64,000 bases of DNA, from assembly GCA_013306675.1 (NCBI GenBank), contig JABLUY010000014.1, positions 124,001 through 188,000 of the forward strand, written 5' to 3'. The position numbers and the translations under genes were made by a program. How positions within the stretch are numbered: the stretch's first letter is position 1; every line of letters starts with the position of its first letter. The stretch comes from Thraustochytrium sp. TN22 (lineage: Eukaryota > Sar > Bigyra > Thraustochytrida > Thraustochytriidae). Of the stretch, positions 18,517 through 64,000 are shown in pieces. The notes beneath the pieces were generated by a model. The model made no database searches and was not told the origin of the DNA. It saw only the letters and a program-made list of their open reading frames with translations.

Positions 18517-21500
18517 TCAGGAGACGCGAAAGACGAGGAAGAAAACGAGGAAGAGCGCGAGCACTAGAAGGAAGACGCAGCAGCACCAGCGCGCGCCGGA
18601 ACCCGCGGAGCGAAAGACCTGCGAGAAAAACGACTCGCGCGGCGGGTCGGGTAGAAAGGGATTCTCGTTGGGCGCGTCGCGCGCGTTGCCGACCGGATGC
18701 TGCTTGGCATAGCGGTCCCTTACCAGGCTCATCTGAATGTCGAGATCGCCGCGCGCCTCGCCAGGCCAGTTGCTGTGCGAGAGCGCCTTCCAGCTGCGAG
18801 GGCGGTCAATGACGTCGCCCTGCGATCGCACAGCCTCGCGCATGAGCGAGGTGAGGTCAATGTTAGCCTCACCCAGCGCCGAGTAGGAGAGCCCGTAGCG
18901 CTCCCAGACGCGGATCTTCAGCCGCACGAACTTGGCAGGTGCCTGGAACGGGAAGAGCATGCGGTAGTTGAAAATGCCCTTGCCGTCCTTCAGCCCAGTG
19001 TGCACGTCCGTGGTGTACTCGCGCTGGTGTGAGCGGCCGTCCAGATCCATGAACGCGAGCTCGCCCGTCACGTAAAGGTTCGCGTAGGAGTGGTCGTCGA
19101 CGAGCGGGACGCGGCGCGTCTCCCAGACCACCAAGCGGAGCTCCCAGTGCTCCACCTTGGGCTGGCGAATGTCGACGATGGCAGTGTTGCCGGCCTCGCC
19201 CGGCGTGAACATCTCCACCCAGCACTCGCAGACGCCATGCACAAGGTTGGACGAGGGCGAGGTGAGCGGGCGGAACTCCTTGAGGCGCTTACGCTGGTAC
19301 TTGAGCTCGTGCCAGTGCGGGTTGAACCAGCGGTCCTCAAGGTCAATCACCGTGCGCCCGATGAGGTCGTCGCTCAGGTAATTGGCGTTCCATACCTGGA
19401 TTTCCAGCTCGTGCACGTCTGGGAAGCGCGCGTCCAGCTCCACCCAGGCGCCAAAGTACGGGTGCAAGGTGTCGGACTTGTACTCGGCGCGCCAGCTACG
19501 GTACACAGCGCTCGAGTACTTGTTCTGTAGGTATGGCGGCACGTTAAGCCGCACCACCAAGTACGGATCGCTGGAGCTTGAAAAGTAGGCCTGCGACGGC
19601 AGGTTCGTGCACGCCACCACGTACACGCGCACGCGCACATCAACCGGCGAAAGCACTGTGCTGGCGATTGAAGTATAGTACGCGCCCGCCTGGACCTGGC
19701 GCTGTACCTCCGCGTCCCGCGCCGCCTTGCGCTCGTCCTGCGAAAGGTGGTGCAGATCGCTGCGGCGCGTCTGTTGCTTCACAATGGCCGCGGCGGCCGC
19801 GGCGGCGGTGCTCATGGCGCCCGCCGCGCCCTCGTGCTGCGACTCCACCTGCGTGCGCAGATTTGCAAAAGGGTCCGGCAGCGGCGCGAGCATTGTGCGA
19901 GGCAGCACGAGGTGCTGCTCGCGATCCAGGTCGCGCCGGTACCGCGCGGGCCGACGTACCTCGACGTAGCCCGTGGGCAGCTCCCGGTCCACCGTGACGA
20001 GCTCGCCGGCCCGAACAATCTCGTACGGAGCGCTGGAGCCGCCAGGGCTTTCGTCTTGCGTGCCGGTGAGCTCGTAGTCCTTCTCGACCACGAACACCTG
20101 GTCCAGCTCGTCCATGACGGGCCGAATGAGCACGGTAGCCTTGAAAACGCCCGCAAACTTGCGCTGGTCCAAGCTCTCTAGCTGCGCGCCACGGTGCAGC
20201 GGAATGGAGTGGAAGGGGAAGGGCGCCAGCTCCTTCGAGGTCTCCAGCAGGCGTGTCTGCTCGTTGGCCAAGCGCGTCTGCTCGTCCTCGCGCGGCCACA
20301 CGAGGGTGCGCGCCGCGTCAAACGGGTCGCTGGAGTCCTGTGGGTTCTCCGAGATGCCGCGGAGCTTCATGAGGCTCGGCAGATCGTCCTCGTAGACAAA
20401 GTTCATGTCCTCGACCTCCTCGCAGACCGCCTCCGGCAGCTCGTAGTGACCCTCGGCGGCCTTGGCGAAAACGCGCTCATGCGCTTCCGCCAGCTCCATC
20501 TCGGGCGACATGTAGAATCCACTGTTGCGTCGCCGCGGCAAGCGTGTCGAGGCCGCATCCCCGTCGTCCTCGCGGTTGTCCGTGCCAGGCGACCCGCTTG
20601 CGCTCGCGCTTCCGCTCGTGCTGCTGCCGCCGCCGACGCCCGGGAGGCTCATGTAGTCGGCGCCTGGGCTCATCTCCTCGTCGTCCTTGGCCAGTCTGGA
20701 GCGCGTGCAGTACGTCTCAAGCGGCAGGGCGCCGCCTGCGACCGAGACGGCATTGTCGCGCTGCAGGCTCTGCGCCGCAGGCTTGATGTGCTGAAAGCGC
20801 GGGATCTCAAAGTACGCCTCTGCCTTGCGCGTGTCCTCTTTCATGGCATCCGAGTACAGGAGCGCGTCCGCAAAGTCGCGCAGGTCCACGGTTGCGGTCG
20901 CTACCACGTACGGCTTGGTAAGGCCTTCATCGTACACCTTGATGGTCATGGACGGTGTGTAAAAAGGGTCCACCGGCATGTTGACCTGCAGCGTGACCGT
21001 GTCGAAGAAGGTGCGGCGCTGGCGCTCCTTGAGCACGGTGGCGTCCACGTCCTCGTCGCCGGCGTCCAGGTCGAGGTCCGCCTCGGATCCGCCGTCCAGC
21101 GCTTCATCTTCCACATCGAAGCCTTCGGGCCGGCGCTCAAAGACCGACATGCCGTGCTCCAGGTCGGCGGCCGGCCCGGGCCCGTCGCTCTCCGCGTCGT
21201 CTTGGTTGTTGCCACGGCGGCGCGGCGACGAGCCTGCGCCGGCGACCTGGCCGGTCTGCCGCAGGTACGCCGCATAGTCGCGCTCGTTCTGCAGAATCTT
21301 GGAAAGCGCGCTCACGTCTTCGGCGCGACGATTGCTCCATGAGGCGACGCCACGCGTGCAGGACGCCGGATGAAACATGCGCGTGGCGCCGGCAGCCGCG
21401 GTGGACTGCAGCTGCAGTAGGCGTAATAGATTCTTGTCGACGTGCCGGGAGAGCTCAAGCCAGTGACCCTTGAGGGCGCCCGTAGCAGGATCAATATCCG

Positions 21501-24432
21501 TTTCGGCATCGAGCGGCAGCGCGTCATAGGCGTACTCCTTGGCGCCATTCAGAAGCGCGCTTGCGTCATCGTCAGTGTCCGCGTCGATCATGCCAGTGTC
21601 GGGAGACGAATCCGCTCGACGCGCGCGGGATGCGCGCGCACGCGCTCCGCCTACCGGAACGGAGCTAGCCATGAACAGACTCGGCGACTCCGGTCCGCCC
21701 ACACCGCCGCCATTAGCGCCGCCGCCGCCGCCGCCGCGCCGCACGCCGGTGCGCACGAGACCTTGCTCGTTGGCGACCTTGGCAGCGACGACGCTAGGGC
21801 CAAGCATGTTAGGCACGCTCTGCACGAGCAAGTCGCAAAAGGGGCGCTGCACCTGGCCTTGGGCATCCTCAAGCTGGCGGAGACCCACGGTGCCGAGGTG
21901 GAGCAGGCACGGGACGACGCGCGGCCAGCGGTGCGCCCAGAGCGGGTACGAGTGCAGCTGCGCGACGGGTACGAGCTCGAACTTGACGAGGATCTCACCC
22001 GCAAGGTCCTCGGCCTCGAAACCATAAGGGCCGTGCGCCTTGACAGCCTGCTGAAGCACGCTGGTTGCCTTCTTGCGATTGGTCCGCTGCCGCAGCGCCG
22101 CCAGGTTGCCGCGCGCCAGCTGCAGCCAGCGCGGGCGCGCATGCGAGGGCCAGAGCTTGAGGTCGCAAAGGGATGCGGGGAACTTGACTGCGCCGATGGC
22201 CTCATCACTGCCGGGCCCACTCTTGTTGAGCACGCGCAGGTCGATATCCGGCGCCAAAGACAGGTTACGCGGAAGAAAGACCTCGTCCACCACGAGCGTC
22301 TCGTACCAAACCGGGCCGAGCGAGTCCGGGACGACACTGGTGCGGAGCAGGCCCTGCGGAACGGCGTCGCTGGCCTGGTTCGGACTAGCCACTTTGGTGG
22401 TGCCGGCCGCGCCAGCCAGGCTCGTTGACCAGGACGGCAGTGGCGTCTTGACGCGGAAGGCGCGCGAGTGGTGCGCGATCCCCAGGCGCATACTGGCGCG
22501 GGCCTCCACCTCGGCCTGCATGCGCTCGTTGGCCTCGCAAACCTGGGCGAGCTTGTCCTCGCGCGAGGTTGCGGCCAGGCGCGCCGTCTTGCCGGCGAAG
22601 GAAACGCGCACGAAGGGCGAGGCCAGACCGTCCTCGTTGGAAGCGCGCAGCTTGCGCGCCTGGTAGACGTGCGCGCGCAGCTGGTAGTGCTCGCCATCCT
22701 TGGCCGAGAGGCGTGCCCCCTGGCGCGGCGGCATGTTTGGCTTGCTCATGCCAAGCGAGACGCTCGCCAGCAGCTGCGCGGGCGTGCGCGAGGCACCTGC
22801 GCGGTTCGCAAGGCCGCGCACGGGAAACCACTCCGGCACGGGCTCGTGCACGCCGTGCACGAAGTCTGGGCGCATCACGTCCATGGCCTTAAAGCGCAGA
22901 AAGCCGACGCGATACGCCGCGCCCACCAGCGGCTTCACGTAAACGTTCAGCACAACGTCGAAGAACTGCTCGCACTCCTGGTCCGTGGGCTCGTTGCCAC
23001 GCGTCGGCAGCGCCACCTCGATGGTGCGGAACTGGCTGCTGGCCTTGCTGGCGGCGCCCTTGGCGCGGCGCGATGCCGCGGAGCCGCCGCCATTGGCCTG
23101 GTTGTTCTCGCTGCCGCTCACGGAGCGCGTATCGGAGTCCTCCTTGTGCATATTCTCGCCCGAACACACGAGCTTGATGGACGTGCCATCGCCCGCGAAG
23201 GCATCTTGCTCGTCCGTGGTCGAGCTGCTCGAGGAGGCGTAGCACCAGTCCGTCTGGCGCTTGAACGGACCGAACTGCACCTCGACCATAACCTGACCGT
23301 AGCCGAGGTCAAGCTCCGCGATGCGGTGCACGTCCACGTAGAGCAGGTAGGGCTGCGTCTTGGGGCCCTTGATGGGCGGGCACGGCTTGCTGGCCGAAAT
23401 GGGCGTGTCCGTGAGCTCCGTGTTGAGGCTGATCAGCACGCGGCCCATATAGTTGGTCACGTCCCGGTCCACCTTGAAGGTGCGGATCACGTCGCAGACC
23501 CAGCCGGACGAGTCCCGCTCCTCGTCCATGCGGCCGTAAAAGTTGAACCAGAACGGAGGGAAGGACTGGCCCAGCAGGCTGGTGAACTGCAGCCGGCGCG
23601 TCGCCAGCAGGCGATCCGGCTGACCGCGGACGTAGTCGTAGAGCTGGATCTCGATGGTGTTGCTGAAGCACGGCGTGTACACAGGCAGCACGAGCAGGTG
23701 GTTCCAGTTGGGCGAGGTGGTATGTGCCTGGTGCGGGGTGCGCGCCGAGAGACCGTTGAAGCGCACCACCACGAAGGGGTCGCTGGAGTCGTTCCAAGGA
23801 TCCGTGACGGCGATCTCTTCACCCCGGAAGACCTTGATACTGAAGTTGTAGCCGTGCCGGCGCACGTCGGGGTTGCGTAGGATGCGCTCCTCGGTGCCCT
23901 CCTTGATCTTGCTGCCGGGCTCCATGGCGGACACCGTGTAGTCCTCCTGGCGCGAGTGCGCTGGCGGCACGTCGCCCGGCCCCAGCACAGTCACAGATGC
24001 CTGCAGGTAGCCTTGCTCCTCGAGCGGGTTCTGCGGGTCCGTGAGTGCTAGCCATCGCCGGTACACCTGGTGCCTGTTGGGCGGCGGTTGGTCGCGCACC
24101 TTGGCGAGCCCGAACGAGAACTGCCCGATGAGCTCATTGCGCAAGATCACGTTGGCATCGAAGACCTGCAGCACGACCAGCTCCGCCTGGAACTCCTCCA
24201 CCGTCATGTCCAGGTCCTGGAAGGTGAAGGTCTGGTCCCACGTCGCGTTGATGCTGTTGCGCCTGATCTCCGTCGCCTGCCGCTTCCCGGCCACCGTGAC
24301 CCGCACAAAGGCGTCCGACAGGCGGTTGCTGCCCTTGCCCATCAGGTGTCGCGCCTCGATCACGTGCACCATCGCCGTCACCTTGATGCGCTTCTTGCCG
24401 TGCTCGCCGCCGCCCTCCTCCAGGTCCGCCAT
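18517..24432 (-). CDS. Ferlin-family multi-C2 tail-anchored membrane protein
   Basis: 1971 aa from ATG 24432 (context AAAATGG). Ferlins are Ca2+-responsive proteins of membrane fusion and repair. C2 domains can be followed from the N-terminus: about 15-140, 190-335 (NDSSDPFVVVRFNG), 360-480, 581-700, a divergent one around 1150-1190, 1596-1690 (SSSSDPYLVVRLN) and 1759-1890. The last keeps the ferlin hallmark of a DVHTGLKDGKGIFNYRMLFPF-like stretch. The C-terminus is a single membrane helix (about 1950-1968, CCCVFLLVLALFLVFFLVF) with a very short tail, the usual ferlin topology. Long acidic and Ser-rich linkers separate the C2 pairs. Several Ca2+-binding Asp residues are present in the second and sixth domains. 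Confidence 0.9.
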   Translation of the reverse strand: MADLEEGGGEHGKKRIKVTAMVHVIEARHLMGKGSNRLSDAFVRVTVAGKRQATEIRRNSINATWDQTFTFQDLDMTVEEFQAELVVLQVFDANVILRNELIGQFSFGLAKVRDQPPPNRHQVYRRWLALTDPQNPLEEQGYLQASVTVLGPGDVPPAHSRQEDYTVSAMEPGSKIKEGTEERILRNPDVRRHGYNFSIKVFRGEEIAVTDPWNDSSDPFVVVRFNGLSARTPHQAHTTSPNWNHLLVLPVYTPCFSNTIEIQLYDYVRGQPDRLLATRRLQFTSLLGQSFPPFWFNFYGRMDEERDSSGWVCDVIRTFKVDRDVTNYMGRVLISLNTELTDTPISASKPCPPIKGPKTQPYLLYVDVHRIAELDLGYGQVMVEVQFGPFKRQTDWCYASSSSSTTDEQDAFAGDGTSIKLVCSGENMHKEDSDTRSVSGSENNQANGGGSAASRRAKGAASKASSQFRTIEVALPTRGNEPTDQECEQFFDVVLNVYVKPLVGAAYRVGFLRFKAMDVMRPDFVHGVHEPVPEWFPVRGLANRAGASRTPAQLLASVSLGMSKPNMPPRQGARLSAKDGEHYQLRAHVYQARKLRASNEDGLASPFVRVSFAGKTARLAATSREDKLAQVCEANERMQAEVEARASMRLGIAHHSRAFRVKTPLPSWSTSLAGAAGTTKVASPNQASDAVPQGLLRTSVVPDSLGPVWYETLVVDEVFLPRNLSLAPDIDLRVLNKSGPGSDEAIGAVKFPASLCDLKLWPSHARPRWLQLARGNLAALRQRTNRKKATSVLQQAVKAHGPYGFEAEDLAGEILVKFELVPVAQLHSYPLWAHRWPRVVPCLLHLGTVGLRQLEDAQGQVQRPFCDLLVQSVPNMLGPSVVAAKVANEQGLVRTGVRRGGGGGGANGGGVGGPESPSLFMASSVPVGGARARASRARRADSSPDTGMIDADTDDDASALLNGAKEYAYDALPLDAETDIDPATGALKGHWLELSRHVDKNLLRLLQLQSTAAAGATRMFHPASCTRGVASWSNRRAEDVSALSKILQNERDYAAYLRQTGQVAGAGSSPRRRGNNQDDAESDGPGPAADLEHGMSVFERRPEGFDVEDEALDGGSEADLDLDAGDEDVDATVLKERQRRTFFDTVTLQVNMPVDPFYTPSMTIKVYDEGLTKPYVVATATVDLRDFADALLYSDAMKEDTRKAEAYFEIPRFQHIKPAAQSLQRDNAVSVAGGALPLETYCTRSRLAKDDEEMSPGADYMSLPGVGGGSSTSGSASASGSPGTDNREDDGDAASTRLPRRRNSGFYMSPEMELAEAHERVFAKAAEGHYELPEAVCEEVEDMNFVYEDDLPSLMKLRGISENPQDSSDPFDAARTLVWPREDEQTRLANEQTRLLETSKELAPFPFHSIPLHRGAQLESLDQRKFAGVFKATVLIRPVMDELDQVFVVEKDYELTGTQDESPGGSSAPYEIVRAGELVTVDRELPTGYVEVRRPARYRRDLDREQHLVLPRTMLAPLPDPFANLRTQVESQHEGAAGAMSTAAAAAAAIVKQQTRRSDLHHLSQDERKAARDAEVQRQVQAGAYYTSIASTVLSPVDVRVRVYVVACTNLPSQAYFSSSSDPYLVVRLNVPPYLQNKYSSAVYRSWRAEYKSDTLHPYFGAWVELDARFPDVHELEIQVWNANYLSDDLIGRTVIDLEDRWFNPHWHELKYQRKRLKEFRPLTSPSSNLVHGVCECWVEMFTPGEAGNTAIVDIRQPKVEHWELRLVVWETRRVPLVDDHSYANLYVTGELAFMDLDGRSHQREYTTDVHTGLKDGKGIFNYRMLFPFQAPAKFVRLKIRVWERYGLSYSALGEANIDLTSLMREAVRSQGDVIDRPRSWKALSHSNWPGEARGDLDIQMSLVRDRYAKQHPVGNARDAPNENPFLPDPPRESFFSQVFRSAGSGARWCCCVFLLVLALFLVFFLVFRVS

Positions 24433-44639: not shown

Positions 44640-47600
44640 CTATGCTCCCTGACGGAGGATGCCAATGGGGTCGAGGTCCTCGAGCAGGGAGGACGTGTGA
44701 ATCTCCATAAATGTGCGCGTACCATCGGTGCCGGCGAGGCTGGTGATGGCGTGGCTGCCGCCTGGATGATGCGGCGCATAGTGTGTGAGGTCGTAGACCT
44801 TGCCGTGGATGGCGACCCAGCAATCCTCGGGCGTGTTGTGGGCGGCGACCTCCGTGAGCGAGAAGGTTTTGGCCGGGGAGGGAATTTGGGCGGGCGCGGG
44901 CGCGGGCGCGCCCGCGGCGTCCTTGGGCTTGTCCTGTGCGATGCTGCTGGTGCCCCGCGGGCCGCGCGCTTGCACCGGGACATGGGAGCCCACGTGGAGA
45001 CCAAAAACGGCGCACTCGGTGAGGGCATTGCCGCCGAGACGGTTCTCGCCGTGGATGCCGCCCACGGCTTCGCCGACAACGTAGAGCCTGCCGCCGGCCA
45101 CCGGGACGCCGGCCTCGTTGACAGCGCGGCCCTGAGCGTCGATGCGCAGGCCGCCCATGGAGTAGTGCACAGCCGGCGTGATGTAGCCGACGTAGTAAGG
45201 CGCGTCCGAGGCAAGCGGCGCGGCCGGGCAGACGGTGCGGCTGAAGGGATCCGGGTGGCCGGATGGATCGCGGCAGGTGTGGTCGAAGTCTTCCAAAGTC
45301 TTGCGAACCACGGCAGCATCCGCGCCGAGCACCTCGGCCAGTGCATCGATGCTATCCACCTCCTCCATGAGCCCCTTGCGCAGGTACATGGGAATGTGTT
45401 TGGGCGCCTGCGCGGCGGAGGCAGAGCCGAGCACCATGAGAAACTCGGGCGGGCTGCCGTCCGCCTTCTTGCCATGCTGCATCATGCGATCCGAGACATG
45501 CTTGCGCGTGCCGAGCTCGTCCACGAAGCGACGGCCCTCAGCGTCCAGAATGACGGCGCCCACGCCGCGCAGGAGCTCGGCTGCCAGTGTCTTGACCGGG
45601 TTGGTGCGGTCCTCCGGGTCCACGAAGGCCGTCGGGTGCACCTGCACCTGGTCAATGTCAACCGTGTCGGCGCCGACGGCCTGCGCCAGCAGCACGCCGT
45701 CGCCCGTGGCGAACTTGCCGTTGGTGGTGGCGAACTTGGCCAGATCCGGCCGGTGCTTGAGCAAGAAGGCGTCCTCGCCGCCGCGATGGAAGCCATAGCC
45801 GCCCGTGGCGAGAATGACGGCGCGGCCCGCCACCTCGAAGCGCGCGCCGCTGCCAAGGTCCTCGCACATGACGCCGCGCGCTGCGGCGCCGGCGTCTCTG
45901 TCGCGCAGGAGCACCTCGGTGACGCGCGTCTGGCGATGAAAGACCAGGCGGCCGCTGCGCTCGTACTCCTTGAGCGCGCGGTTGACGGCGGCGATGAGCT
46001 CGGAGCCGGCCAGGCCGGTGGCCGGGCGCCAGGTGCGTGGGCGCGAGTGGCCGCCGAGCTGACCCACCTCGTCGAGCGCCAGGCCGGTGCGCGTGCGCAG
46101 CCAGGCCAGGGCGTCCACACTGCCCTTGGTGAGCACGTCCACGAGTGGATTGCTCGCGTATTCGGGGCGCTCGCTGCCGCGTACCATGTCATCCTTGAAG
46201 AGCTCGACGGAGTCGCCGAAGCGTTCGGCGCTGGAGTCATCAAGGCCGTTGATCCCGCTCGACGCCTTGGCAGAGTTGCCGCCCGGCCCGCCCTCCTTGT
46301 CCACGAGCACCACGGAGCCGCCGCGGTCTAGGATGGAAAGCGCTGCCGTGAGCCCCGAGAGCCCGGCGCCTACCACGACGGCATCCGGCTCTTCGCTGGC
46401 GCCGGCGGCAAGACCCGTGGCGCCGCCACGTTCCAGGCGCCTCAGCGCGTGCCGCAGAAAGGAGCCGTAGTGGCCCTCGGACGCGAAGTGACGCGCCAGC
46501 AGCAAGATCTCCTCGTTGCCGTCCAGGAGGGCGTCGACCAGCGCGTCCTCCTCTTCCTGCTCCAGCGAGCCCTCGCTGAGCGCAGCCGAGACGACGCCCA
46601 GCGACAGATCGCGCAGCGCCTCTGGGCTCTGCCGCGAGGCCGGCACCGAGAGCTCGCCGCCCGCGCCAGGGCCTGAGGTCTCGGGCCGTGCCAGCAGCGC
46701 CGCCTTCATGTGCTGGTTGATCTCGATCGCCTCGGAGAACTTGGCAATCGTATTGAAGAGCGCCACGACCTCCTCGCGCGACAAATTCTCCCGAATGAGG
46801 TCGTCCGGCAACAGCAAAATCTTGAGCGCCGTACCGATGCCAAGCAGCTGCAGCTTGCCGTGCAGCCGGCAGCGCTGGCACCGGATGCAGTTGAAGACGC
46901 CGCTGATGTTGTGGAAGATGTCCTTGAAGCGCCGCTTCAGGTTCGCCATGGTCGACACGCGAGGGCCCTTCTCGTCCACAAAGAGCAGGCTCTCATCGAA
47001 GGCCTCAAAGACTGCCTGGCACGAGCGCAGCACAAAGGAGTCCAGAAACAGCGAGACCAGCTTGTTGGTGCGCTGGTCCTCCTGCGCGCCGCCCGTGTCG
47101 AAGCTGAACTCGCGCAGCACGGGCGAGGCGCGCCGCACGGCGCGGAGCAGAACCACAAAGGCGAATTCCAGGTTCTTGAAGCGCTCCGGGTGGGTCTCGA
47201 ACTGCCGCTGGAACCGGCTCAGGTCGCGCTCCCAGCGGTCGCGCTTGCCCGGGATGGGTGGCTTGTAGTGCTCCGAGATGTGCAGGTTGATGCTCGAGTG
47301 CAGGCCCGACAGCATGCGGTACAGGAAGCGCTCCTCGTAGCACATGTGCGCCTCCTCGATCTCGAAACAGTTCTCCTTGTAGATGGCCTCCCACACGTTG
47401 CTCCCGTTATAGCCCGTGTACTGCTCCGGATTCAGCTTGAGATTAATGTACTCCTTGGTGGAGTCATTGAAGGGCAGCTTCGCGCACAGGTTCGTCCAGA
47501 ACGCAGGCAGGGACTCGTCCTCGCAGTCCTCTTCGGCGCGGCTCACGACGCTGTCTTCCGCCTGACTCAAGGTGCGGTCCACCTCGTTCGCACCGCCCTT

Positions 47601-47992
47601 GCCGCCCATGCCGCCGCCCATGCCGCCGCCCATGCCGCCGCCCATGCCGCCGCCCATGCCGCCGCCAAAGAACGGATTTGCGTCCGCCATGTCGGTCGGC
47701 TTAATGTTGCACAGCGGCTCGGGCGCGCCATCCTCGTGGTCGTCCTCCGGTTCCTCGGACCCGCAGCTCGGCTCGCTCGGCTCGGCGGCCGCGCCGCCAG
47801 CGCCGGCGGCCGCGTCTAGCGGGCACTCTCCGTCCAGCTGCACGCGGAAGAGCCTAAAGTACGTCGTGTTGGTCAGCTCCGTGAGCAGCCGCAGCAGGTA
47901 CTCGCCGTTGGCCGTGCGGATCGCCTCCGAGTTGCACACCAGCTCGTCCTCGAACAGCACGTTCGCGCGCAGCGGCGCCGCGTTCTCCTGGC

Positions 47993-48023
<31 letters not shown>

Positions 48024-48098
48024 GCACGCCGCCGCCGCCACGCACGCCGCCGCCACGCGCGCCGCGCGCCGCGCGCCGCGCGCCGCCGGCCGCGCCAT
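44640..48098 (-). CDS. ERO1 - fumarate reductase - cytochrome b5 fusion protein
   Basis: 1152 aa from ATG 48098. A signal peptide (RAARVAAACVAAAACVAAA) leads into an ERO1 domain, about 45-460. It has FRLFRVQLDGECPL, the FAD/oxidase core (NLKLNPEQYTGYNG, ENCFE, SGLHSSINLHISEHY) and the active-site CIRCQRCRLHGKLQ (Cys404, 407, 410). A linker of about 110 residues with no Met follows. Then comes a soluble fumarate reductase flavoprotein domain, about 572-1040: VVVGAGLSGLTAA (Gly577), the HPTAF region, HYSMGGLRI (His978), and GGIHGENRLGGNA (Arg1020). A cytochrome b5 domain ends it, about 1078-1152, with heme ligands His1111 (HHPGG) and His1134 (EIHTSS). ERO1 oxidises PDI; fumarate reductase reduces fumarate to succinate. 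All three parts are in one frame without stops. ER-lumenal location is inferred from the signal peptide. Confidence 0.9.
47598..47665 (-). repeat. In-frame GGGM-type repeats within the ERO1 domain
   Basis: Five copies of a 12-nt unit encode (GGGM)n between the shuttle-cysteine segment and the ERO1 core. Probably a flexible insertion. Confidence 0.85.
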
Positions 48099-48366: not shown

Positions 48367-49492
48367 CCGAGTCCTCCAGCGCGGCCGGCCGAGCGTGGGC
48401 CAGGCCGACCACCTGGACTTGAACCAGCTAACTTAGCTAGCTAACTTAGCGGCTGGCACCCGAACGCGAGCTCGCAGACCGGCGCATTCCAGCTGGATAT
48501 CCTCAAGGACTTATTAGTGGTCGCCGGCGCTCACCATCAAGACGGCGCTCGTGTCGCTGTAGCCGCTGCTTTCGGCGCCCGAGCCGCGCGACCCGCAGGA
48601 CGATCAGATTGCCACGCAGTAACGTGAGGATTCGGAGACCTTCAAGAAGACGGCAGGGTTCTGGCTGGAGTACGCGCAAACGCGGCGCAAGCCCGTGGTG
48701 GTTGAGTCCAGAGTCCTACCGCGGTGGTCGGGCTCGCCAAGGCCGGCGGTGACGGCGGGCGAGCAGCCGAGAGCAACAGCTGCGTGGATGCAGTCGCGGC
48801 GGGACGGGAAAGCCAACCAAGCCCCTGACGGCGCCGAGCTAGCTCCTGCTTGACGCGCGTAGTGCAGAACGATCGCGGGCGACAGGATGGTTGCTCTGCG
48901 CGCGACCTGCTGGAGGAGGTCGGGCTCAAACGAGCCGTAAACGCGGAGGTTGTAGCCGACGCTGGAAGTCTAACTCCTGGCGACAGCAAAGCTGGCATGC
49001 AAGCCCAGCTGCGCTGCGCGTGATGGACCCAGACGCCACTTCGGGCAGAGAACGTTTTGTAAGTTGCGCCTCGTCGATGCGGAGCGCAGGCTCACAGTCA
49101 GTGAAAGGGGTCTCACTGACACGGACCTAACGTTACCTATACAAAGGACGTCGCCGACAGCGACAGCGGTAGCGGCAGTAGCTCCGAGTAATCGACTTCT
49201 CCTCCTCGCAAGGGTTGCGCAGCGCGTGTCGTCACTCGCAATGACCGCGATGCAGCTCGCAGCTATCCCCGTGCCTGCCAGAGAGTCAGCTCGAGCAATC
49301 GGTCGTCGAGCTCGAGCGGCAGCGGTGGCACCTCCGTATTGGATCACGCCGATGGCAACGGCGGCGGCGGCGGCGGCGGCGGCGGCGACGGCGATGACGA
49401 CGGCAACCGGGACAAGGATGGCGACGCGGTTGGCAGCGGTTGGCAGCAAGGACGCGGAGCGTGGTATCAGCGCCGACGGTGCCCAAGCGCTC

Positions 49493-52211: not shown

Positions 52212-53641
52212 CGAAAAAGCGCAAAGACAGAGAGTCGGGCGCGAGCATGGGGCGTGAAACAGCGTCGCCGAGAGGCTTTGATGTGACGAAAAATAACCTT
52301 AGAAGTCACAGGGCATACTACCCGCCTCAGGCTGCCGTGAGGATCACTAAACCTGACCACCCACATCTTCCTTGGTCTCTCTGCCAGTGGCGGCTGTAGG
52401 CTCACTTTCAACAGCCCAACTCCGAGCCGGCCATCAGGGGTGGCGACCAAGTCCGACCGTGACAGCTCATCGTGTTCAAGTTCTTCAGGCTGCCGGGCAT
52501 CTCATCACGCGAGCATCTGACCTACTCGAGGCTAGGCGACGGGCTGCAGCTCATGCGAAGTTTCGCCCAATCGACGGGCGGCCAGCAGGGGCGCCCGCCT
52601 TCGCGTGCGGAGCTCACGAATTGCGCAGGCGAGCTCGGCTCCAACGCGCCGAACGCCTTCGAGGCACCCCCCTGCCATTGGAGCGAGGGCCACACGCTCC
52701 CAGCAGCGAGCCCGCAGTCCATGATCTGATCAACACGCGCACTGGCAGCGGCAGAGGCTCGGAATCCAGAGTCTCCGCAGCCAAATAATCCTGGCGGAGC
52801 CGATCGGAAGCTTGCTCGAAGGGCAGAAGAAAAAGTCCTGACCAACACCGACGTGCCCCACCAACCGCCTGACCGTTCGCCGCTCCTCCGCATCCACAGC
52901 GACGTAACAACGGCCTCAAGGGTCGCTCGATCCTTTCGACCTGTGGCCTCCCACGCAGCGAGCGCGCGACGGGCCGCTCGCTGTCCGAGTCAATCGATCC
53001 CCTGCCAGTGGATGCTTCGACTCGGAATCGCAGCGACACCCGTTGGCCTGGCCGCGCTGGCCGCCAGGCTTCCTGGGCACCGGTGGCCGCTCCTTTGCTC
53101 TGTCCCGCTCCGACTCGCTCCTGAAAGGCGCGCGGCTTCCCCAGCCGCCTCACCGGCAGCTCCGAGCCGCCACAACCTCGACCAGCGACTGGGCCCCCGC
53201 CAAGACCTCCGCCGCCTTGCTCGTCTGCGGGCGCGGCGGTAGAGTCTTCAAACTGACCTTTTGGTGGACTGTGGAGCTGAAGGGGCAGAAGAACGCAGCA
53301 GCGTGACGTTGCTCGCGGCCGTCCGTCGACTTGTTGAAAGACGCCGCGGGTGACAAGGGCCGCGCTGCTTTGCCGCGGCCAGCGAAGCTCCAGCTGGCCA
53401 GCGAGAGGCCTGGATGCCGACTTGGTGGCTGCTGCTGCTGAGTTCCTCAGGAGCACGGCCAGCCGAAAGACCTGGAAAGACCTGGCTCAGCTGGCTCAGG
53501 CTGGCTGTTGGGCCGCTAGCAGGAAGAGGCCCCGCTAGCGAGGGCGGGGAGGAGCGAGTGAGCAAATCTGCAACCAAGGCCCGGCGAGTCCCCGGAGGCA
53601 CCTGCGCGCTCAAGCGACTCTTCCTTGCTACGCTCGAGACG
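52212..53641. other. 1.4-kb region before the kinase array
   Basis: No gene I can support. TTCAAGTT occurs at 52475-52482 but is not placed near a minus-strand start. The in-frame open region 53414-53641 upstream of kinase 1 has an ATG but no counterpart in the paralogue. Confidence 0.4.
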
Positions 53642-54604
53642 ATGCGGCTCCTGCACAGCGGCTCGACCGCGTCGATCTTAGTGGACGCCTGCGCGGAGGA
53701 GACTGGCGACATGGCCGGGACCTTCGTCCTCAAAGTGTACAAGCACGGCGAGCGCGCCGCCGCCGCGCTAGAGGCTGAGAGCAGGGCACTGGCCAGGCTT
53801 GGACATGCCGCGCAGACGCCCGGCTTCGTGGTCAAGTGCATTTGCGCCACAGAGATGAACATCCAAGGAGAGCACCACGCGGTGCTCGCGCTCGAGTTCT
53901 GCGCCGGTGGCGACCTCTGCGACCTTCTCACATGTGGCCCGGTGCCTGAGACCGACGCTCGGCACTACGCCGCGGAGATCGCGCTCGCGCTTGAGCACCT
54001 GCGCAGCGCCCAGATCGTGCACGGCGACATCAAGCCGGAGAACATTGGCCTCACCGCGCTCGGCCACTTGCGCCTGCTCGACTTTGGCCTCGCGCACTTC
54101 GTGGACTCCTCTGAGGATGACTCGCCGGGGCATCCGAGCGGCACGCTGGCGTTTGCGCCGCCCGAGCTGTTCCGGCGCTCCGCGCGCGGCTTCGCGGTGG
54201 ACTGGTGGGGCCTTGGCGCCACGCTCTTTTGCATGCTCTTCGGCTTCGAGCCCTTTGGGTCGCCTGCGGTCTTCTCGAACGAAGACCTGACCTACAACAT
54301 CATGCATGGCGTCATCCAGTGGCCTTCTGGGTCGGCAGCCTGCTCTTCCAACGCAACCGAGGCCATTCGCGCGCTCCTCGCCGCTGACTCCAGCGCGCGG
54401 ATGCAGTCCGTGTCTGCATGCACCACGCACCCGTTCTGGCAGGGCGTAGACTGGGTCTCGCTGCGCGACGAGGCCTGGGTACCGGCGCGCTTCCACGCTG
54501 TGCATCTGCAGCCGCCGCAAACTAACTGGCGTCGGCGCGCTCGCTCCGCGCCCTTCACGACTAGCGGCGGAGGCTGCAAAGGCCCCAACCGGCGTAACAT
54601 GTAA
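53642..54604 (+). CDS. Protein kinase 1 of a tandem array (AGC-like)
   Basis: 320 aa from ATG 53642, chosen because it aligns with the start of the paralogue at 56848; an upstream in-frame ATG at 53414 would add 76 residues. The Gly-rich loop is degenerate (SGSTASILVD), but the rest is intact: Lys31 (TFVLKVYK), helix C Glu46, the catalytic loop HGDIKPEN (Asp129, Asn134), DFG at 147-149, the GTLAFAPPEL activation segment, and VDWWGLGATLFCMLFGFEPFG. The VDWWGLG signature is AGC/calcium-kinase like, but there is no AGC C-terminal hydrophobic tail. HGD replaces HRD, so it may not need activation-loop phosphorylation. Substrates are unknown. Confidence 0.87.
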   Translation: MRLLHSGSTASILVDACAEETGDMAGTFVLKVYKHGERAAAALEAESRALARLGHAAQTPGFVVKCICATEMNIQGEHHAVLALEFCAGGDLCDLLTCGPVPETDARHYAAEIALALEHLRSAQIVHGDIKPENIGLTALGHLRLLDFGLAHFVDSSEDDSPGHPSGTLAFAPPELFRRSARGFAVDWWGLGATLFCMLFGFEPFGSPAVFSNEDLTYNIMHGVIQWPSGSAACSSNATEAIRALLAADSSARMQSVSACTTHPFWQGVDWVSLRDEAWVPARFHAVHLQPPQTNWRRRARSAPFTTSGGGCKGPNRRNM

Positions 54605-56847: not shown

Positions 56848-57813
56848 ATGCGGCTCCTGCGGCATGGCTCGTACTCGTCGCTCTTCGTGGACGCCTGCGC
56901 GGAGCAATCCGGTGACATGGCCGGGACCTTCGTCCTCAAAGTGTACAGGCATGGCGAGCGCGCCGCCGCCGCGCTAGCGGCTGAGAGCACGGCACTGGCC
57001 AGGCTTGGCCAGGCCGCGCAAACGCCCGGCTTCGTGGTGAAGTGCTTGTGCGCCACGGAGATGGACATCCAAGGCCAGCACCACGCGGTGCTCGCGCTTG
57101 AGTTCTGCGCCGGGGGCGACCTCTACGACCTTCTCGCGCGTGGCTCGCTGACTGAGACCGACGCGCGGCTTTACGCCGCGGAGATCGCGCTCGCGCTTGA
57201 GCACCTACGCAGCGCCGGGATCGTGCACGGCGACATCAAGCCGGAGAACATTGGCCTCACCGCGCACGGCCACGTGCGCCTGCTCGACTTTGGCCTCGCG
57301 CACTTCGTGGACTCCTCTGACGGCGACTCGCCCGGGCATCCGAGCGGCACGCTGGCGTTTGCGCCGCCCGAGCTGTTCCGCCGCTCCGCGCGCGGCTTCG
57401 CGGTGGACTGGTGGGGCCTTGGCGCCACACTCTTCTGCATGCTCTTCGGCTTCGAGCCCTTTGGGTCGCCTGTGGTGTTCTCGGACGAGGCCGTGACCTA
57501 CAACATCATGCACGGCCTGATCCAGTGGCCGTCTGGGTCGGCCGCCTGCTCTCCCGGCGCGATCGAGGCCATCCGTGCGCTCCTCGCCACTGACCCCGGC
57601 GCGCGGATGCAGTCCGTGTCCGCCTGTACGACGCACCCGTTCTGGCAGGGCGTAAATTGGGTCTCGCTGCGCGACGAGGCCTGGGTGCCGGTGCGCTTCC
57701 ACACAGTGCATCTGCAGCCGCCAGGGCAACCCAACTGGCTCCGGCGCGGTCGATCTGCGCCCTTCACGACAAGCGTCCAAGCTTGTAAAGGCCATCACCG
57801 GCGCAACTTGTAG
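56848..57813 (+). CDS. Protein kinase 2 of a tandem array (AGC-like)
   Basis: 321 aa, ATG at 56848. It is nearly the same as kinase 1 over the whole length, including Lys31, Glu46, HGDIKPEN, DFG and VDWWGLG. Differences cluster in the first 20 residues (RHGSYSSLFVD against HSGSTASILVD), in the acidic loop after DFG, and at the C-terminus. All catalytic residues are kept, so it is probably active. The start codon is about 3.2 kb from that of kinase 1; the repeat unit includes the downstream small ORF. Confidence 0.88.
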   Translation: MRLLRHGSYSSLFVDACAEQSGDMAGTFVLKVYRHGERAAAALAAESTALARLGQAAQTPGFVVKCLCATEMDIQGQHHAVLALEFCAGGDLYDLLARGSLTETDARLYAAEIALALEHLRSAGIVHGDIKPENIGLTAHGHVRLLDFGLAHFVDSSDGDSPGHPSGTLAFAPPELFRRSARGFAVDWWGLGATLFCMLFGFEPFGSPVVFSDEAVTYNIMHGLIQWPSGSAACSPGAIEAIRALLATDPGARMQSVSACTTHPFWQGVNWVSLRDEAWVPVRFHTVHLQPPGQPNWLRRGRSAPFTTSVQACKGHHRRNL

Positions 57814-60052: not shown

Positions 60053-63000
60053 TTAGCGTCCGGCCCGAGAGAGGCCAGCAATCTGAGCGGCTAGGGTAGA
60101 GTGAGTGTCATCAGTGTCGGCGTCCTCGTGCTCGTCATCTTCGAGGTGAACGTCTTCTGAGATGCGCTCGATCCAGGTGAGTGCGCGCGCCACGGCGATG
60201 CAAAAGCGCAGAAAACACCCGAGCCGGGGTTTGGGGTCGGCCTCGCCAAAGTCTTTGACCGGCGCATGGCCCTGGAGAGCCTCCTCGCGCTCATGAATGG
60301 CGTGGTGAGCGGCGCGCAGCACAATTTGCGCAAGCAGATTGGTCGCGAGCGCGCCGCAGACGAGCAGCGCGGTCCCGGGCTCAAGACTGGAGTTGATGAA
60401 GAGACAGGTAGCGTCCTCCTCCTCTACAAACCCCGTCGGCACGAGGACGTCCTCGATGAGTGGCAAGACGTGCTTGCAAACGGGCTTGAGCAGGACGTAG
60501 GATATGTGGCCGAGCTCCATGACGCCGACGATGAGGCCCACAACGAAGACGTCGACGCATGACCAGGCGGAGCTGATCTCTGCGAGAAGGTAAATCCACT
60601 TCTGTCGCTGCAATGTCATGGGCCGCAACCAGAGTGCAGCGAGGCCCGCGAGCGTGAGGATCGGGAAGACCGCCGCCGTGACCAGGTAGGCAAGCGCGAG
60701 AAAGAAGACGCCGAGGATATAGCCTGGGGAGTCGTCGACAGACTCGATGGCCTGGCGCATCGCAAAGGCGAAGGTGTCAAGCACCGAATACGGCATCCAG
60801 GACTGGACTTCGTCAATGTCCATGAACATCCCGACAACGCCCATGATATTGAAACCAAAGGACGGGATGCTAATGCCCACGACGACCAGGATCACCGCAA
60901 CCGCCAGCATGATGGAGATCCACCGACGCCCGGCCGAGGTGAAGCGCACCTTGGAGCCGTCCGCGAGGCTGAACTCGTGCTCGTGCAATCGCTCACGTGC
61001 CTCGTCATCCTGACCGCGTTCCAGCCAGGTGGAGAAGCGGCGGCGGCGCTCCGATGGAGGCGCCTCGGTAGCAGCGGCGCTCTGTGCGTCGCCAATGACA
61101 TTGGCGCCCGGGTCCACGTCCATCTCCATTGCAGCGCCTTCCATGTAGTTAGCGACCGCCACCGCGAGCTCAGGCTCCTGAAGTGCCTGCTTGTCAGCGT
61201 CGACAACGTTACGATGGTAATACACCAGGAGGTTGTTGACGAAGAGCGAGGTCATGGCGGCACCTGTGAAGGCAACAAGGCCGACAGCGGGGTCCACAAA
61301 GACGCGCACGCCATAAAACCCGTCCGGGAGGATGTCCAGGCGTGGGTTTTCTATGGAAATGCCGAAAGAGACCATGATGAGAAGCAGCACGTACACGTCG
61401 ATCATGGACCACTTGCCAACGGTGTCGAAGGCATCGAGAATCTTGCCGCGCCTCGTCACGCTGAGAAAACGCGGGGGCGTGAGCCAGCAGAACGTCATGG
61501 TGAGCACTTTGAGGTACGGGAATGCGCCGCTGAGGCCGGCGATAAGCAGCGCCAGCGGGATAATGCCACTTTCCCAGAGCTGCTTGATGCTGTTACCGAT
61601 GGAGAAGCTTTCCACGTTGCCCATGAGGATCTCGTCGCCCAGCACGGTAAAGAGCACGTTGATCTTGGCCGCCGTCACAAGGTGGCCAACCACGAAGAGG
61701 AAGACGTTCATGCAGAGCAGTCCCAGCACGCCATAGCGCGCATACGCGGGAACAGCGCGGTGGAAGCCTAGTGCGGACCGCGTTTGCTCCAGCACGCGCA
61801 CCTTGGCCTCGACTCCAGCGCCGCTCAGCTCCCCTGCGCCGCCTGGCGATGCGCCAAACTGGTCTACGAGCGAGGGCGCGGCGAAGGCAAGTGCATCCTG
61901 GGCGATTTCAATGTCGGCCGCGTCAGAAGCCTGCGAGTTAAAGCGAAAGAAGCGATGAAGCCCCATGGCGCTCGTCTCGCTGCTAAGCGAAGACGAATGC
62001 TCGCGCTCCTCGTCGCCCCAGGGGCGACGGCCACAGCACCGGCAGCACCTGGAGGCAGATGGCACACCATGCGAGCAGCAGCCGCGCCTGCCAAATTTGA
62101 GGCAGCAGCCGATGACGACACCTGACAGCATGGTGAGGCCCATGCCGCCCACAATGCCAAAGACGCTCAGGCGCGACTGGTTCTCTGCGTGATAACTAGT
62201 GGACGACGTGCTCAGGTAGGTCCCGTCGCACTTCTCGCGAGCCTCCTCGATGGTGATGGCGAGCTGCGCGCGGTCAATCTTCTCGCGAAAGCGGTCCAGC
62301 ACCGTGGCGATCCACTCGTTCATGGTCGTGGTGAACTGCTCCTGGTAGTCCTCGCGCTGCACCCTGCGCTCCATCTCCGGCATGCCGGGCGAGCTGCACT
62401 CGATGCAGCGCACGCCGACGCGAATCGTCTCGAAGCTCGCGCCAATGGCCTCGATGGCCGCGTCGTCCAGGCGCGCCAGCACGCAGTTCAGGTCCAGGAT
62501 CTGCTCGATGGACATGGTTTCAAAGTCGGTGCGGTTCACCATGGCGAGAAAGTCCACATAGGCGGCAAACCCCTGGAAGCTGACCCAGAACTCAAACTTG
62601 TTGGCGAAGCTTGTAGCATCGCCATCAAAGTTAATTTCCAGAATGACGGAGAGCGTTACGGGCGGCAGGTCGCCGCTGTCTCCGTCTGTCGCCGTGCCGT
62701 TGCTAGCGCTGGCCGCAAGAGCCAGGAGGCGCTTCTCGGCCTCTTCTCCGCGCATTTGCTGCAGCGAGCGCCGCGCCTCAGTGAGCGGGCCGCCCAGCTT
62801 GAAGGAGTTGCGCAGCACGTAGGGCCGCGGTGTCTCCATGAAGTGCACGTCGTACATGGAATCGAGGCCTGACACGCTGATCTCGGCCGTAGACATCGTG
62901 AAGGTGCCCACGGGAATGGCCAGATCCGCCATGGCCACGTCCTCCTGCAGTATGTAGGTGCCAGCCTCACCGCTCTGTGCCTCGCACATGGGCGCCAGGT

Positions 63001-64000
63001 AGCCCTCGTTGATGTCCGGCAGCACGTCGTCGCGCACAACCGTTACGAGATCTTGAAAGTACGAGTCGCCCGCAAAGTCAAAGTAGGGATCCTCCGTGTA
63101 CGCGGCGGGGGGCGCGCAGTCGGCGCCACGAATGAGCGTGTCGAAGCCGCTCGTCAACAGATCTGGCCCCTTCTCCATGAGAATGCCCGGCAGGGCCAGG
63201 AGGCCGGAAGGTCCGTACACGTGTAGAAGTGAGGTGAGCACGTCTTGCACAAGCTTGTTCACCTCTGGACTGACCAGACCGCTGAGACGTGGCGCGGCGT
63301 TGAAGCTCTGCACGCTACCCCAGACGCGCGATGCCTCGAAAAAGTCAAAGGTTGTCAACACGCAGTCAAACGGGTTTTCCAGCACCGCACCAAAGCCGAG
63401 TTCCCACGCACGCACGCTGTTGATGGCCAGTGCGACGGCGAGCTGCACCGTGAGCTCGTGCACGTCGAGGGAGAGCCGAAAGACCTGACGCTCCAGCACG
63501 ATGCCCACCTGCTCGAGGCGCCGCCGGTGCTCGCTCGTGGCACCGCTCAGCAGTTGCAGGTCAAGAACGAGCTCCGCTTCCGCTGTAAGATCAGCAAAGG
63601 TGATGTTGCTCTCCACCGTCATCGCCCCGTACACGTGCGCGGGATCAAAGCTCAGGACCTGGTCCAGGCCGTTCAGCTCGAGCCGGCTCATCTCCAGGCG
63701 CAATGAGAAGATGTCCTCCGCGGAAAATTCGAGCAGCGTGATGTTGCCGGCGTCCACCTCGTAGTTGCCCGTGCCCTGCGTGATGGACCGCACCAGGTCG
63801 GCGGTGGATGAGTTCCTGCCGAGCTCGAGGCCCTCCTCGGGCGTCAAGGAGAACCCGCTGTTGAAGGCGTCAAAGGCCATGCCAAAGATCTCACTTGTCT
63901 CGAAGTCGACCCAGTCTTCGTTGGGCTTCAGCACCGCATTTTCCACTCGGAGCCGGTCCACAAAGTCGTTCGCCAGCCCCTGGTAGCGCTCGATATAGGA
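60053..64000 (-). CDS. LetA/PqiA-domain membrane protein with large N-terminal domain (5' end outside window)
   Basis: Partial: the frame runs off the right edge, leaving 1315 residues here. The first 650 visible residues are a soluble, beta-rich region with several hydrophobic strands (VYGAMTVESNITFADLTAEAELVLDLQL; DYQEQFTTTMNEWIATVLDRF). They resemble in style a lipid-binding TULIP-type domain, but this is not established. After a membrane helix (VFGIVGGMGLTMLSGVVIGCC) come two PqiA/LetA modules, each with several helices. Their signatures are KWSMIDVYVLLLIMVSFGI (about 61345-61410) and AWSCVDVFVVGLIVGVMELG (about 60515-60575). Bacterial PqiA and LetA partner MCE proteins in lipid transport between membranes. 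The tail is acidic and cytosolic. Confidence 0.75.
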   Translation of the reverse strand, partial: SYIERYQGLANDFVDRLRVENAVLKPNEDWVDFETSEIFGMAFDAFNSGFSLTPEEGLELGRNSSTADLVRSITQGTGNYEVDAGNITLLEFSAEDIFSLRLEMSRLELNGLDQVLSFDPAHVYGAMTVESNITFADLTAEAELVLDLQLLSGATSEHRRRLEQVGIVLERQVFRLSLDVHELTVQLAVALAINSVRAWELGFGAVLENPFDCVLTTFDFFEASRVWGSVQSFNAAPRLSGLVSPEVNKLVQDVLTSLLHVYGPSGLLALPGILMEKGPDLLTSGFDTLIRGADCAPPAAYTEDPYFDFAGDSYFQDLVTVVRDDVLPDINEGYLAPMCEAQSGEAGTYILQEDVAMADLAIPVGTFTMSTAEISVSGLDSMYDVHFMETPRPYVLRNSFKLGGPLTEARRSLQQMRGEEAEKRLLALAASASNGTATDGDSGDLPPVTLSVILEINFDGDATSFANKFEFWVSFQGFAAYVDFLAMVNRTDFETMSIEQILDLNCVLARLDDAAIEAIGASFETIRVGVRCIECSSPGMPEMERRVQREDYQEQFTTTMNEWIATVLDRFREKIDRAQLAITIEEAREKCDGTYLSTSSTSYHAENQSRLSVFGIVGGMGLTMLSGVVIGCCLKFGRRGCCSHGVPSASRCCRCCGRRPWGDEEREHSSSLSSETSAMGLHRFFRFNSQASDAADIEIAQDALAFAAPSLVDQFGASPGGAGELSGAGVEAKVRVLEQTRSALGFHRAVPAYARYGVLGLLCMNVFLFVVGHLVTAAKINVLFTVLGDEILMGNVESFSIGNSIKQLWESGIIPLALLIAGLSGAFPYLKVLTMTFCWLTPPRFLSVTRRGKILDAFDTVGKWSMIDVYVLLLIMVSFGISIENPRLDILPDGFYGVRVFVDPAVGLVAFTGAAMTSLFVNNLLVYYHRNVVDADKQALQEPELAVAVANYMEGAAMEMDVDPGANVIGDAQSAAATEAPPSERRRRFSTWLERGQDDEARERLHEHEFSLADGSKVRFTSAGRRWISIMLAVAVILVVVGISIPSFGFNIMGVVGMFMDIDEVQSWMPYSVLDTFAFAMRQAIESVDDSPGYILGVFFLALAYLVTAAVFPILTLAGLAALWLRPMTLQRQKWIYLLAEISSAWSCVDVFVVGLIVGVMELGHISYVLLKPVCKHVLPLIEDVLVPTGFVEEEDATCLFINSSLEPGTALLVCGALATNLLAQIVLRAAHHAIHEREEALQGHAPVKDFGEADPKPRLGCFLRFCIAVARALTWIERISEDVHLEDDEHEDADTDDTHSTLAAQIAGLSRAGR

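Follow-up and report, generated by a model that had tools for sequence, protein, structure and literature searches.

A single open frame joining ERO1, soluble fumarate reductase and cytochrome b5: a candidate enzyme for fumarate-dependent disulfide formation

There is no settled account of the route by which ERO1 is re-oxidised when oxygen is absent. The earlier note on this DNA had said that yeast Osm1, a soluble fumarate reductase, has been reported to support ERO1-dependent oxidation when oxygen is lacking, and this is indeed in print: in PMC6242907, recombinant Ero1 and Osm1 from yeast use fumarate to oxidise thiols after O2 depletion. According to the same paper, the contact between the two yeast proteins is weak (Kd about 200 uM), Ero1 is reported to bind Osm1 in the place of the haem domain, and docking leaves the two FADs over 20 A apart, which is too distant. 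The contact is described there as not necessary for coupling, yet important for efficiency, and the authors themselves term direct Ero1-Osm1 transfer controversial. Nine residues of Osm1 (K76, S78, P162, W295, F297, L298, N359, F362 and Y363) make up a second pocket for FAD (PMC6242907). In Arabidopsis, no such alternative oxidation system has been identified yet, according to a 2022 plant paper (PMC9516139).

Here we analyse an open reading frame, located in a window of 64,000 nucleotides (the whole stretch of DNA examined), in which the same two enzymes appear to be joined in one chain and followed by a cytochrome b5 domain. We lean towards the reading that the frame is a single gene from what seems to be an intron-poor eukaryote, and that its product is an enzyme of the ER lumen which would make disulfides at the expense of fumarate, a function we infer from its sequence. 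The domains and their functional pairing are already known. In the portions of open-licence PMC papers that we covered, we found neither a description of an ERO1-reductase fusion nor any ERO1 described with a reductase domain; this literature thus yielded no single-chain form, and unpublished database entries with this domain order may exist.

Layout of the open reading frame

The earlier note had reported one frame of 1152 codons, and its length, position and strand are all as it said: the frame runs uninterrupted from ATG to TAG on the minus strand (44640-48098) in our ORF analysis of the window. Position 48098 is the first in-frame ATG; upstream of it the frame has no other ATG and meets its first stop, a TAG, at 48441-48443. 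Pfam places ERO1 and Cyt-b5 at the residues listed in Table 1 and FAD_binding_2 at residues 572-1026 (5.6e-72), each of the three matches being far above the curated cut-off. Among the best 60 of 116 matching PDB sequences, yeast Fumarate reductase 2 (Osm1) was top (2.8e-75), and human ERO1, yeast ERO1 and b5 chains were also present.

Table 1 Features of the fusion frame and their positions in the window
Feature	Positions	Strand	Basis
Whole ORF: ERO1, helical linker, soluble fumarate reductase, cytochrome b5	44640..48098	-	1152 aa + stop
Putative ER signal peptide, Arg/Ala-rich, residues 1-35	47994..48098	-	hydropathy
ERO1 domain, residues 70-459	46722..47891	-	PF04137 8.5e-83, profile 4-352 of 354
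Candidate shuttle cysteines, C112 to C130, 17 residues between	47709..47765	-	by eye
CIRCQRC active site, residues 404-410	46869..46889	-	aligned with yeast CVQCDRC, human CVGCFKC
Linker without Met, residues 465-569, helices predicted at 500-558	46392..46706	-	
Fumarate reductase domain, residues 570-1040 (H821, E841, R844, R865, H978, R1020)	44979..46391	-	
Pro/Ala-rich linker, reductase to b5, residues 1041-1080	44859..44978	-	
Cytochrome b5 domain, residues 1081-1137 (HPGG and His of EIHTSS)	44688..44858	-	PF00173 1.5e-20

The signal peptide proposed for the N-terminus fared less evenly. A hydrophobic stretch of 19 residues is there, starting at residue 15 (mean Kyte-Doolittle 2.25), but under the codon model the coding score of residues 1-36 was no better in frame (0.022, versus 0.258 in another frame). 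A signal peptide is a plausible reading of this hydrophobic stretch. The C-terminus reads ILRQGA and a KDEL-like tail is absent. The ERO1 part holds 5 N-glycosylation sequons against a shuffle mean of 2.0 (P 0.04), and the reductase and b5 parts hold 0 where <1 is expected, which supports no inference on topology. A full-length fold computed without an alignment had a mean pLDDT of 34.5 and was set aside.

Evidence that the linker belongs to one gene

The frame could also mislead: ERO1 and the reductase-b5 part might be separate genes or exons that stand open in one frame by chance, since GC-rich DNA carries many long spurious frames. By composition, the chance that the 105-codon linker is open is about 0.17, and 163 of 876 control frames (frames of linker length outside large ORFs) were open as well; linker openness alone is weak evidence for one gene. 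We give more weight to the coding score, obtained with a codon model trained on five Pfam-supported genes of the window. The linker scored 0.299 in frame, the best of the six frames, and the same frame was the best for every ORF segment tested, residues 1-36 excepted. This value was reached by 12 of the 876 control frames, 9 of them among the open ones, although some of these high scorers may be real small genes. In held-out windows of the five training genes, 28/34 scored 0.27-0.75 and 6/34, in two genes, scored -0.16 to 0.12. Third-position GC ranged from 73 to 100% over the ORF as a whole and was 85-92% in the linker blocks. Both coding score and codon-position GC are coding-like throughout the linker and speak against a chance junction.

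The start sites and splice signals argue in the same direction. As the earlier note had claimed, the linker is free of methionine: an in-frame Met is found at 464 and the next at 638, beyond the FAD-binding motif of the reductase, whose match begins at about 570. A reductase starting on its own has no Met between them. Residues 460-570 contain 0 donor-like strings of the form GT[AG][AC]G. The nearby families (RhoGEF, MMS19, Vps4-like AAA, kinases and ferlin-like C2) also lie in long open frames, of 1053 aa for MMS19 and 766 aa for RhoGEF, and point to an intron-poor eukaryote. Taking both sides together, we regard a junction of separate genes or exons as quite improbable.

The linker itself found no match in Pfam, and its best other match in the rest of the window had an E value of 0.54. 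Its predicted helices at 500-558 had an AF2 pLDDT of about 54-64 over most of their length, with no homologue covering the linker. As all three domains match strongly, the catalytic residues are intact and the linker is coding-like, the reading of this frame as a fusion is well supported by sequence analysis.

Other frames of the window were recorded on their own account. On the minus strand, 60053-63880 holds a 1275-aa frame that matches PqiA-type membrane domains (PF04403 1.6e-16; the NCBIfam PqiA models scored far under their cut-off), a family of bacteria here set among eukaryote-like genes, and 18517-24432 holds a 1971-aa ferlin-like frame in which C2 domains are accompanied by a FerI match below the threshold. 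On the plus strand are a 784-aa frame (6389-8743) that matches DDE_3 transposases and, below the cut-off, IS630, a Subtilase (10860-13082, PF00082) with a PT disordered repeat (PF04886), and two protein kinase frames lying near each other (53414-54604 and 56848-57813), possibly duplicates, the second of which has its best match starting at profile position 59.

Catalytic and cofactor residues of the three parts

The ERO1 part had been called complete. This holds for the profile, of whose 354 positions 4 to 352 are covered. The shuttle cysteines, by contrast, were not found in their usual C-x4-C spacing. The CIRCQRC active site claimed for this part was found at residues 404-410, and C404, C407, C410, R411, L412, G414 and K415 are invariant among the fusion, yeast and human proteins, giving CxxCxxC followed by RLxGK. 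C112 and C130 are the sole cysteines in the interval from C92 to C192; they form a candidate shuttle pair with C-x17-C spacing and an acidic loop, an assignment made by eye against the human sequence and numbering. We take the human shuttle pair to be the C-x4-C pair Cys94/Cys99. Human Cys94, 99, 104 and 131 are named in passages of PMC12666077 that do not say which of them form the shuttle pair, and comparison by eye found no obvious counterpart of Cys104 in the fusion.

Further differences concern the insert and the flavin site. A Met/Gly-rich insert follows the candidate shuttle cysteines, with a GGGM repeat run at 47601-47666 (minus strand), before the NPEQYTGY motif. Among the presumed FAD-contact residues of ERO1, W236, S264, H267 and R306 are kept. 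At two positions where the yeast and human enzymes both have arginine, the fusion has Q226 (NPER) and Q299, with R298 adjoining Q299; the latter position presumably equals yeast R260/human R287, and we assume FAD roles for both arginine positions. With Q226 and Q299 in place of Arg, FAD binding may differ. Both changes, together with the shuttle spacing, speak against a plain ERO1, and its regulation may be altered.

The reductase part is identical to Osm1 at 166 of 452 aligned residues (37%). The six Osm1 catalytic residues used for mapping (Kim et al. 2018, PMC6242907), namely H281, E301, R304, R326, H435 and R477, correspond to H821, E841, R844, R865, H978 and R1020 of the fusion and are identical in 6/6 cases; the His978 and Arg1020 named in the earlier note are thus the counterparts of H435 and R477. 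In NCBIfam, this middle part falls in the flavocytochrome c family TIGR01813 (320 bits, cut-off 285). An AF2 model of residues 465-1152, built on an alignment of 23 of the 53 bacterial relatives described below, had a mean pLDDT of 67.5, and its flavin and clamp fold matched Osm1 best in the PDB (5glg, E 1e-37, TM by target 0.87). An FxDPxDRxN stretch after VQVHPT is common to the fusion and Osm1 and missing in the four bacterial sequences compared, which suggests the eukaryotic Osm1 type of reductase. Urocanate reductase shares the fold, and the flavoprotein part might accordingly reduce another unsaturated substrate (urocanate-like or another acrylate) and offer no fumarate outlet. The match at 6/6 fumarate reductase residues and the PDB scores, 257 bits for Osm1 versus 142 bits for urocanate reductase, leave this reading with a very slim probability.

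Relatives were sought in contigs by means of few peptide patterns, so that a miss is not proof of absence. With these patterns, viral contigs gave 0 relatives, whether from the ERO1 part (3 pattern matches) and the ERO1 alignment (105) or from the reductase-b5 part (no pattern match) and the reductase alignment (60). In genome contigs, the 46 pattern matches of the ERO1 alignment included 0 relatives, and the 162 of the reductase alignment yielded 53, all bacterial and none reaching the b5 part. All 53 keep the six catalytic residues. The fusion also had a match in 23 phage records, and among the 15 listed all matches lie within query residues 549-1039. OR846748, OR848130 and other phage records carry a fumarate reductase-like stretch of about 31% identity, which may be host DNA.

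We then compared the free-flavin pocket, a trait reported for yeast Osm1 and not a family criterion, since several of its positions vary in relatives. The fusion retains K76, S78, L298 and Y363 and differs at the other five positions, with A for P162, V for W295, T for F297, H for N359 and M for F362. At position 297, where the fusion has T, 52/53 bacterial relatives have F or Y; at position 362, where it has M, F is found in all but one of the 49 relatives aligned there. These counts are not independent, since lactobacilli and their kin supply 48 of the 53. As the bacterial relatives vary at positions 295 (H in 48/53), 359 (A in 48) and 162 (A in 11), only 297 and 362 carry the pocket argument. 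With this limit, the fusion lacks two aromatics whose role would be to hold the isoalloxazine ring of a free flavin, which fits a tethered electron donor and not free flavin. The pocket change could also go with b5-bearing reductases generally, rather than with the ERO1 fusion.

Both b5 motifs that had been claimed are present, HHPGG at 1110-1114 and EIHTSS at 1132-1137, and we take the His of the HPGG and EIHTSS motifs to be the axial haem ligands. The b5 part was modelled with low confidence (AF2). No reductase domain serving the b5 was found within the fusion protein using Pfam, and we know of no lumenal electron partner for it.

A possible fumarate outlet compared with known systems

Our model suggests that electrons would pass from PDI to the ERO1 shuttle cysteines, on to C407/C410 and then to the ERO1 FAD. 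Instead of O2 or besides it, the reductase FAD would take them up and reduce fumarate to succinate, either directly or via the b5 haem, which could span a distance over which one flavin cannot pass electrons to the other. With the domains tethered, neither the weak contact between Ero1 and Osm1 nor the shuttling of free FAD, as in yeast, would be needed, and the loss of the two pocket aromatics fits such a replacement. Both the anaerobic outlet and the b5 relay are inferred. In its most specific form, the model has a single chain pass electrons from PDI to fumarate by way of the ERO1 FAD, the b5 haem and the reductase FAD, with neither O2 nor H2O2 involved and with the free-flavin site of Osm1 traded for an internal haem relay; this form is tentative.

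Alternatively, the protein might be an uncoupled scaffold, in which ERO1 uses O2, the reductase is fed by another lumenal donor via the b5, and only targeting and expression are shared. The lost pocket aromatics would be expected here too, if haem and not flavin donates, and flavocytochrome b2, which includes a b5, is among the PDB matches. Physical contact is, moreover, not necessary for Ero1-Osm1 coupling, though important for its efficiency (Kim et al., PMC6242907). Yet the protein carries no Pfam reductase domain for the b5, and an idle fusion of precisely the pair that is functionally coupled in yeast would be surprising, so that we hold two uncoupled enzymes to be unlikely.

If the coupled reading is right, secreted proteins could be folded without oxygen. 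Finding the two enzymes fused in nature would independently support their working together, and the fusion would offer a one-protein system of fixed stoichiometry in which to test the Ero1-Osm1 pair. The b5 domain suggests a way of bridging the two flavins.

Yeast Osm1 (5glg) and Ero1 share with the fusion the reductase type, the catalytic residues and the ERO1 partner. In yeast, however, these are two weakly binding proteins with no haem domain, and the pocket aromatics are present. Human ERO1-alpha (3ahr) and yeast Ero1p (1rp4) resemble the fusion over nearly the whole ERO1 profile and in CxxCxxC; the fusion differs from them in its C-x17-C spacing, in Q226 and Q299 for Arg, in the Met/Gly-rich insert and in the reductase domain. 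Flavocytochrome b2 is likewise a flavoenzyme with a b5 domain, which serves there as a haem relay, but its b5 is N-terminal (chain residues 11-72 match) and its flavoenzyme is a lactate dehydrogenase. The flavocytochrome c3 fumarate reductase of Shewanella, a bacterial periplasmic enzyme, has the same catalytic residues and, also in a single chain, an electron-donor domain N-terminal to the reductase. Its donor is a tetrahaem domain, whereas the fusion has an N-terminal ERO1 and a C-terminal b5; ERO1 thus stands N-terminal to the reductase, where flavocytochrome c3 carries its haem domain.
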